Shown here in pieces: positions 22,512-64,000 of a DNA stretch of 64,000 nt. The notes under the pieces are model-generated. The model was not told the origin of the DNA and made no database searches. It worked only from the letters and a program-made list of their open reading frames with translations. Source of the stretch: Salinivenus lutea (GTDB lineage Bacteria; Bacteroidota; Rhodothermia; Rhodothermales; Salinibacteraceae); contig NCRC01000018.1 of the NCBI GenBank assembly GCA_002894685.1, forward strand, positions 1 through 64,000, in the 5' to 3' direction. Position numbers and translations under genes: made by a program. Each line of letters begins with the position of its first letter. Within the stretch, counting starts at the first letter, position 1.

Positions 22512-23296
22512 ACCGCCAGCCCTCCCCCACCGCCGGGCACCCGGTCGGCCGGTCGTTCCCGGTCCACCACGATGCGGCCGTCGAGAAAGCGGACGATGCG
22601 GCGGGCATACGTGGCCATTTCCTCCTCGTGCGTCACCATGGCGATGGTGATGCCACGCTCCACGTTGAGCTCCGTCAGCAAGTCCATGATTTCGCGGCTC
22701 GTGGTGGAGTCGAGGTTGCCCGTGGGCTCGTCGGCCAGGAGGAGCGCCGGCGCGGTAACGATGGCCCGCGCCACGGCCACACGCTGCTGCTGCCCGCCCG
22801 ATAGCTCCGCGGGGGTGTGGTGCTCGCGCCCCTGCAGTCCCACGGCCGCCAGCGCCTCGTGCGCGCGCCGCCGGCGCTCGCGGCCCGGGACGCGCCGGTA
22901 CACGAGCGGCATCTCCACGTTTTCGAGGGCGGAGGTGCGCTTCAGCAGGTTGTACCCCTGAAAGACAAAGCCGAGGTAGTGCCGCCGCAGCAGGGCCCGC
23001 TGGTTCCGGCTGAGCGTGCCCACCTCCACGCCCGCAAAGCGATACGAGCCGGACGTGGGGGTGTCGAGGCACCCGATCATGTTGAGGCAGGTGGACTTGC
23101 CGGACCCGCTCGGTCCCATGATCGCCACAAACTCCCCGGCCCCGATCGTAAGGTCGACGCCGTCGAGGGCGCGCACCTCGGCCATGCCCGTGCCGTAGAT
23201 TTTGGTGATGCCCTGAAAGGCCACGAGGGCGGGAGGGGCCGCCCCCTCTCCCTCGGCACGCGGGCGCTCGGTCTGGTCGGCGATCTGTGGGCTCAT
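22508..23296 (-). CDS. MacB/LolD-type ABC transporter ATPase
   Basis: A 262-residue ATPase with Walker A G-P-S-G-S-G-K-S (about 63-70), Q-loop V-F-Q-G-Y-N-L-L, signature L-S-G-G-Q-Q-Q-R-V-A-V-A-R-A, Walker B L-L-L-A-D-E-P-T-G-N-L-D and H-switch V-T-H-E-E-E. This is the MacB/LolD/FtsE subfamily. The upstream extension in the same frame is a shadow of the adaptor gene, so ATG 23296 is chosen. It overlaps the adaptor gene by four bases (23293-23296) and the permease by four. The N-terminal ~20 residues are acidic and Pro-rich and may be disordered. Confidence 0.93.
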   Translation of the reverse strand: MSPQIADQTERPRAEGEGAAPPALVAFQGITKIYGTGMAEVRALDGVDLTIGAGEFVAIMGPSGSGKSTCLNMIGCLDTPTSGSYRFAGVEVGTLSRNQRALLRRHYLGFVFQGYNLLKRTSALENVEMPLVYRRVPGRERRRRAHEALAAVGLQGREHHTPAELSGGQQQRVAVARAIVTAPALLLADEPTGNLDSTTSREIMDLLTELNVERGITIAMVTHEEEMATYARRIVRFLDGRIVVDRERPADRVPGGGGGLAV

Positions 23297-62892: not shown

Positions 62893-63678
62893 ATGCCCAC
62901 GCCCCTGTCCACCCGACGCCGCAAGGCCATCGCCCGCCTCACCCGGCGCCGGGGCCGTCGCGAACAAAACCAGACCCTTATTGAAGGCCCGCGGGCGCTC
63001 GACTCGGCCCTCGCCGCCGGCGCGCCCCTCGTCGCGTGCGTCGCGACGGAGGACGCCCTCCACGACCCGACGGTGCAGTCACTCGTCGACCGCCTGGAGG
63101 TGCCCGTCTACACCACGGACGCCGACACGATGGCGACGCTCACCGACGTGCAGTCCCCGCAGGGCCTCGTGGCCACGGTGGAGCGCCGCCTCGTGGCCCC
63201 CGACACGCTCCCGGAGCACCTGCCGGACGACGGCACGACCCTGCTCCTGGACGGGGTGCAGGACCCGGGCAACGTGGGCACCCTGCTCCGCACGGCGGCC
63301 TGGTTTGGGGCCGATGCCGTGGTGGCGGGCCCCGGCACCGCCGGCCTCTACGGCCCAAAGGTCATGCGCGCCGCCACCGGCGGGCACTGGGCCCTCACGC
63401 TCTCGCGCACCGACGACCTCGGCCCCGTGCTCGACGCCCTCCGCCGGACCGGCTGCGCGCTCTACGGCGCCGACCTGGAGGGCGTCCGCGCCGACGCCTG
63501 GACCGCCCGCCGCCCCTCGGCCCTGGTGCTCGGCAGCGAGGCCCACGGCCTGAGCCCCACCGTCCTCGACCGCCTCGACACCCCCGTGTCCGTCCCCGGC
63601 GCCGCCGGCCGCCCCGCCGCCGAGTCCCTCAACGTGGCCGTGGCGGGCGGCATCCTGGTCTACGAGTGGCTCGGCTGA
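62893..63678 (+). CDS. SpoU/TrmH-family RNA 2'-O-methyltransferase
   Basis: A 261-residue SPOUT-fold methyltransferase. N-terminal substrate-binding domain with H/Q-N-x-T-L-I-E-G-like N-Q-T-L-I-E-G-P-R-A-L, then the three SpoU motifs: L-L-L-D-G-V-Q-D-P-G-N-V-G-T-L-L-R-T-A (motif 1), L-V-L-G-S-E-A-H-G-L-S (motif 2) and S-L-N-V-A-V-A-G-G-I-L-V-Y-E (motif 3). It methylates ribose 2'-OH in rRNA or tRNA; target not determined. The longer upstream frame overlaps gdhA and is a shadow. A promoter-like sequence begins 35 bases after the stop. Confidence 0.92.
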   Translation: MPTPLSTRRRKAIARLTRRRGRREQNQTLIEGPRALDSALAAGAPLVACVATEDALHDPTVQSLVDRLEVPVYTTDADTMATLTDVQSPQGLVATVERRLVAPDTLPEHLPDDGTTLLLDGVQDPGNVGTLLRTAAWFGADAVVAGPGTAGLYGPKVMRAATGGHWALTLSRTDDLGPVLDALRRTGCALYGADLEGVRADAWTARRPSALVLGSEAHGLSPTVLDRLDTPVSVPGAAGRPAAESLNVAVAGGILVYEWLG

Positions 63679-63712: not shown

Positions 63713-63745
63713 TTTGTAACGTTTCAGATACCGACGTTAGATTGG
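63713..63745 (+). promoter_or_regulatory. candidate Bacteroidota promoter
   Basis: TTTG (63713-63716), 21 bases, TAGATTGG (63738-63745): a TTTG box at the right spacing from a box matching TAnnTTTG at seven of eight positions. It is the best promoter match I find in the window, and is not directly in front of any visible gene. A start site near 63751 is expected. Confidence 0.55.
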
Positions 63746-63750
63746 GCGCG

Positions 63751-63834
63751 CTCATGCGTCTATCCGAATGCATTTCTTTCCTGGGCGCACTTCTCCCAGA
63801 AGCCCGGTCTCTTGGTGGGGGTCCGGGCTTTTTC
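63751..63834 (+). ncRNA. candidate small RNA or attenuated leader
   Basis: Between the promoter candidate and the terminator lies an 80-odd-base segment. It contains two adjacent stems: CTGGG (63781-63785) with CCCAG (63795-63799), then AAGCCCGG (63800-63807) with CCGGGCTT (63823-63830) and a T-run. This is the form of a small transcript or of a leader with attenuator for a gene beyond the right edge. An ATG at 63753 opens a frame through the hairpin to the window edge, which has no recognisable product. Confidence 0.45.
63800..63833 (+). terminator. intrinsic terminator at right edge
   Basis: AAGCCCGG (63800-63807) is the reverse complement of CCGGGCTT (63823-63830), and the T-run extends to 63833. 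Located 122 bases after the methyltransferase stop, it may end either that transcript or the candidate small RNA. Confidence 0.8.
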
Positions 63835-64000
63835 TTTATCTCAACGGAATTTTCTGCGGCGCGCGGGCCGCGTGAGCGCCGCTGCGGGCAGGGGGCGCCA
63901 CCCCTCCGGGGCGCTGGGGGAAACGGCCACGGCGGGTGTGCATTGAGAGTCAGGGCGCTTGCCCCAAGTCGACTTCCTTCACCCATCTCCGACGACAGTA
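63835..64000. other. right-edge region without recognised gene
   Basis: GC-rich sequence after the terminator, with frames open on both strands but no start, family or composition support. A GGGGCGCC-rich stretch near 63890-63920 could be part of a gene or leader outside the window. Confidence 0.4.

Follow-up and report, generated by a model that had tools for sequence, protein, structure and literature searches.

The region that follows the gene for a SpoU/TrmH-type RNA methyltransferase (trmH) in Salinivenus lutea, close to the right end of the 64,000-nucleotide stretch of contig NCRC01000018.1 analysed here (the window), contains a promoter-like element, a hairpin and a terminator, which raises the question of whether these parts constitute a stand-alone small RNA (sRNA) or the attenuated leader of a gene located further to the right. 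Direct reading of the sequence found in place all the elements named in a preliminary description of the locus: TTTG-N21-TAGATTGG, the CTGGG/CCCAG stem, the AAGCCCGG/CCGGGCTT stem and the T-run. Their coordinates are collected in Table 1, in which the 5′ end of the sRNA is inferred from the promoter and the 3′ end from the terminator.

Table 1. Features of the trmH-linked element (window positions 63713-63838) and of its surroundings.
Feature	Window position	Strand	Basis
SpoU/TrmH-type RNA methyltransferase gene, upstream neighbour	62893..63678	+	Pfam PF00588; synteny
Promoter-like element TTTG-N21-TAGATTGG (TTTG 63713-63716, TAGATTGG 63738-63745)	63713..63745	+	Direct sequence reading
Inverted repeat TAACGT-N11-ACGTTA, overlapping the sRNA promoter	63717..63739	.	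Direct reading
CGACGTTAGAT, part of the promoter element conserved among copies	63732-63742	+	Alignment; promoters of copies
Putative small-RNA gene, about 88-91 nt	63748..63838	+	Covariance model R1 match; alignment A2
5′ motif GYGTCTA near the RNA start	63756..63762	+	Alignments A2 and A3
CAYNUCU linear motif, first copy (CATTTCT)	63771..63777	+	Single-stranded in consensus prediction
Hairpin 1, CTGGG 63781-63785 / CCCAG 63795-63799	63781..63799	+	Compensatory stem changes across copies
Hairpin 1 loop with second CAYNUCU copy (CACTTCT)	63788-63794	+	
Intrinsic terminator, AAGCCCGG 63800-63807 / CCGGGCTT 63823-63830 with T-run 63829-63837	63800..63837	+	
Terminator apical motif TGGTGGG	63813-63819	+	Alignments of copies
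GGAAAC-N16-CATTG promoter-like block of the downstream MPTYT gene	63919..63945	+	Intergenic sequences and alignment

Examined by itself, the window sequence gave a mixed picture. The terminator exceeded chance expectation, since three terminator-like sites were detected in 1.2 kb where 0.5 would be expected, and two of these correspond to the terminator hairpin of the element. The promoter had been presented as the strongest in the window, and it scores 9 out of 10 against TTTG/TAnnTTTG; however, two other window sites equal it and 5 of 10 simulated windows reach a score of 9, so that the strength of the promoter match is weak evidence when taken alone. When the window sequence alone is folded to minimum energy, the 5′ half prefers a pairing other than hairpin 1, and the existence of this hairpin therefore rests on comparative evidence and covariation. 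The case for an sRNA is made by conservation and not by the single sequence. The Rfam collection (release 15) gave no match to the window at gathering score, and a permissive scan returned only chance hits, whose 13-15 bits fall below the cut-offs (at least 45).

A DNA search revealed matches to the element in all 13 genomes of the genus (Salinibacter/Salinivenus), with the similarity mostly limited to the element itself. The covariance model built for the family (R1) matched the window at positions 63746-63838 with 97.8 bits, and 11 trmH-linked copies were recovered at E values of about 1e-19 to 1e-23. The same type of search located three copies in the genome of the window (C10:63746, C2:6614 and C13:68402) and one to eight matches in each Salinibacter genome (model R1). 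Altogether, about 30 to 40 paralogous copies occupy unrelated gene contexts, including plasmids: one resides at 22762-22852 of pSR35 in S. ruber DSM 13855, which also has a locus at G005:C1:676625-676714, and BLAST found others in pSR84 and in a further three plasmids of S. ruber. The pSR35 and pSR84 copies (L324 3001-3221 and L325 1862-2044, respectively) are situated in gaps without annotation, downstream of genes of the thermonuclease family. The trmH-linked copy of one genome (G011:C95; L225 1009-1097) is degenerate and has lost CAYUUCU; five or six other copies persist in this genome.

Beyond the genus, clear members were found in several other Rhodothermales families. Order-wide matches reached 28 of 114 genomes with model R1 and 39 of 112 with model R2, counts that have to be read as upper figures because some of the weakest matches, those scoring under about 35 bits, are plain terminators that lack the motifs. 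Across 296 genomes of the phylum, convincing matches were confined to Rhodothermales; a match outside the order (G310) was rejected as a plain terminator in which the motifs are absent. Phage records gave no match, and viral contigs contained no convincing family member. The preliminary description could not reveal that the element belongs to a family of multiple copies that share two invariant motifs.

The alignment of trmH-linked copies revealed a fixed order of elements: CGACGTTAGAT upstream, followed by GYGTCTA, CAYTTC, a hairpin with a CAYTTCT loop, and GCCCGGTCTCTTGGTGGGGGTCCGGGC with the T-run. In all but one of 25 cases, the ACGTTA block (CGTTA) is separated from GTC by 23-24 nt. The copies carry two to three CAYNUCU motifs, one of them usually in the loop of the covarying hairpin; when several are present, their spacing is about 17 nt. 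Copies in different contexts retain the UGGUGGG-capped terminator, and in some of them (e.g. G011:C58, G001:C19 and G005:C1:3498987) an additional internal hairpin with a UGGUGGG loop is present. The hairpin stems vary while the loops are constant, with CUGGG/CCCAG, UUGGG/CCCAA, UGGCA/UGCCA, CGGCA/UGCCG, CGGGG/CCCCG and CCAUC/GAUGG among the pairs observed. A peptide-coding reading of the element was excluded by one-base indels among orthologs.

The inverted repeat that overlaps the sRNA promoter may be an operator of a common regulator. Repeats like TAACGT-N11-ACGTTA occur in the copies of three genomes (G009, G017 and G018), and other copies have TAACG...CGTTA or AACGaCGTT.

Checking covariation in related genomes showed a structure that is both conserved and covarying. 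In an alignment fitted to the model, 94.9% of the cells were paired, 10 of 12 pairs had changed on both sides, and none of 500 shuffles scored as high. A second test, in which the 3′ arms flanking CAYNUCU were swapped among sequences, gave a pairing score of 11.38 for the native arms vs 9.24 for the swapped ones (sd 0.36, maximum 10.50, 300 trials); this test is independent of the model-fitted alignment, although the copies themselves had been found with the model. In addition, CAYNTCH was located at most 72 nt upstream of 55 out of 59 terminators with a TGGTRRG loop, compared with 6 in shuffles, at loci chosen by a model that contains the motif. A count on close orthologs aligned with MAFFT only did not reveal covariation, because the terminator hardly varies among them.

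The conserved covarying structure, the paralogues in unrelated contexts and the separate promoter-like block of the downstream gene support the proposal of a stand-alone small RNA, and we conclude that the sequence very probably encodes a real sRNA belonging to a real sRNA family. As judged from the searches described above, this family is a new, previously undescribed one, and its dispersed intergenic copies, each with its own predicted promoter and terminator, have the traits of generic multicopy trans-encoded sRNAs. The whole explanation that we propose, namely an sRNA of about 90 nt linked to trmH that belongs to a multicopy Rhodothermales family and would act by means of repeated recognition sites, is in our opinion moderately probable. 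According to this proposal, the RNA would act in trans, with CAYNUCU and UGGUGGG displayed as repeated sites for recognition by a partner, most probably an RNA-binding protein that would be sequestered or delivered by the sRNA, CsrB-like in principle but not in family. A protein-ligand or sponge mechanism of this kind is put forward with a little less than even confidence. All four bases occur at position 4 of CAYNUCU (T57, C13, A12 and G4 in 86 instances), and a protein ligand is favoured because degeneracy of this kind at the centre would be poorly tolerated by a base-pairing seed.

The main alternative is a family of base-pairing trans-acting sRNAs, FopS- or LhrC-like, in which the exposed CAYNUCU or UGGUGGG would block translation through pairing with the leaders of mRNAs, the different copies adding dosage or target diversity; we regard this as a tentative but real possibility. 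The multicopy layout and the repeated loops are in line with it, and FopS provides a precedent of multicopy sRNAs with canonical promoters that pair near start codons (PMC11697453). The start regions sampled belong to 272 genes that a simple calling method identified within 400 kb of S. ruber sequence, which corresponds to about 11% of one genome. The leaders of this sample (L257-L276, 1.0-1.4 Mb) are C/U-rich, with CTCTC and TTCTC enriched, which would allow pairing of a G-rich loop with some of these leaders. However, in these 272 regions AGANRTG, the complement of the linear motif, occurred zero times upstream of starts, CCCACCA was not enriched, and the duplex energies of the sRNA at start regions were not clearly better than those of shuffled sRNA pieces. 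No Shine-Dalgarno signal was visible in the same starts. Two further ideas were rejected for the sampled S. ruber genes: CAY as an anti-start-codon seed, whose complements are not enriched, and a mimicry of leader elements by the linear motif, since CAYNTCT in leaders is not enriched beyond composition. The lack of enrichment of motif complements at these starts leans to protein recognition and is compatible with specific mRNA targets. Of the two mechanisms that we infer, we favour protein-recognition sites over base pairing.

Searches for known RNA-binding proteins, each with positive controls, narrowed the candidates for such a partner. Hfq (PF17209) was found in none of 112 genomes of the order, CsrA/RsmE (PF02599) and ProQ/FinO (PF04352, with E. 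coli as control) in none of 27 genomes of the family, and RRM_1 (PF00076; RbpB-like) in none of the 13 genomes of the genus. RRM_1 proteins were present in 45 of the 112 Rhodothermales genomes. These results indicate that the known chaperones are unlikely partners in the genus, and that any protein partner would be another one. A more specific version of the protein reading, in which a dedicated Rhodothermales protein unrelated to Hfq, CsrA, ProQ or RRM would bind CAYNUCU and/or the UGGUGGG loops and be titrated or delivered by the multicopy sRNAs, is offered as a speculative and rather doubtful suggestion.

The sequence to the right of the window was inspected with regard to the other option raised at the outset, an attenuated leader. 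The absence of a recognisable gene downstream holds inside the window only, as an 84-aa ORF (MPTYTIIGFEKDG...) begins at position 64001, one base beyond its edge. This MPTYT gene is uncharacterised and has no Pfam match; of the 13 genomes of the genus, 12 have the order trmH - element - MPTYT gene, and for all 12 trmH-linked copies the gene lies on the same strand, 152-306 nt downstream. Such an arrangement would suit a leader acting through terminator read-through, with the other copies acting on their own neighbours. Nevertheless, the GGAAAC-N16-CATTG block is kept between the terminator and the MPTYT gene in 12 of 12 genomes, amid otherwise variable sequence; this conserved promoter-like block of the gene's own, situated past the terminator, makes the sRNA element look like a separate transcription unit and argues against an obligatory leader. 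Furthermore, the other copies have different neighbours, often on the opposite strand, and none is near MPTYT or trmH, except one by a distant trmH relative, and an unsystematic look did not find a conserved antiterminator pairing. We therefore consider the leader improbable. The GGAAAC-N16-CATTG block resembles promoters of the extracytoplasmic-function sigma factor type.

Equally improbable is that the element represents only a conserved terminator or repeat devoid of regulatory function, be it the 3′ terminus of trmH transcripts or something REP-like. In favour of this reading, the terminator hairpin is the most conserved part of the element and the copies are dispersed, plasmids included. 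Against it, conservation with fixed spacings covers the promoter block and the 5′ half as well, the stems vary around an unchanging CAYNUCU and UGGUGGG, and some copies have extra UGGUGGG hairpins away from the terminator; moreover, a fixed loop is not required in a plain terminator.

Salinibacter serves as the principal bacterial model for hypersaline waters, and the papers searched contained almost nothing on its small RNAs. A conserved multicopy sRNA family in bacteria in which no Hfq, CsrA, ProQ or RRM protein was detected would offer a direct handle on their post-transcriptional regulation, and could be used as bait for a new RNA-binding protein. Should the reading with a dedicated protein be true, these sRNAs would be the hub of a so far unknown post-transcriptional system.

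Among the known systems, CsrB, CsrC, RsmY and RsmZ share with the putative recognition-site RNAs described here short invariant motifs that recur in linkers and in the loops of hairpins whose stems vary. They differ in that the motifs here are CAYNUCU and UGGUGGG instead of GGA, so that the repeated ANGGA loops are missing, in the low number of motif copies (only 3-5 per RNA), and in that CsrA was not found in the 27 genomes of the bacterial family. LhrC of Listeria and related anti-Shine-Dalgarno sRNAs exist in several copies and carry short motifs repeated in single-stranded segments and in loops, that of the terminator among them. The Salinibacter family is likewise multicopy, with its motifs repeated in loops and single strands, terminator loop included; however, these motifs are not Shine-Dalgarno complements, no such signal was seen in the sampled starts, and Hfq was not detected. 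The nearest described system, likened by description and not by sequence, is FopS, a group of 14 paralogous sRNAs of Bacteroides thetaiotaomicron, which bind RbpB, an RRM protein, and repress the translation of susC (PMC11697453). The Salinibacter family differs from FopS/GibS in that an RRM_1 partner was not detected in Salinibacter genomes, though relatives have RRM_1, in that start-codon pairing was not detected in the 272 S. ruber genes sampled (about 11% of the genome), and in having no Rfam match. What both have in common are short paralogues present in multiple copies, equipped with their own promoters and terminators and dispersed over the genome of a host without Hfq (PMC11697453).
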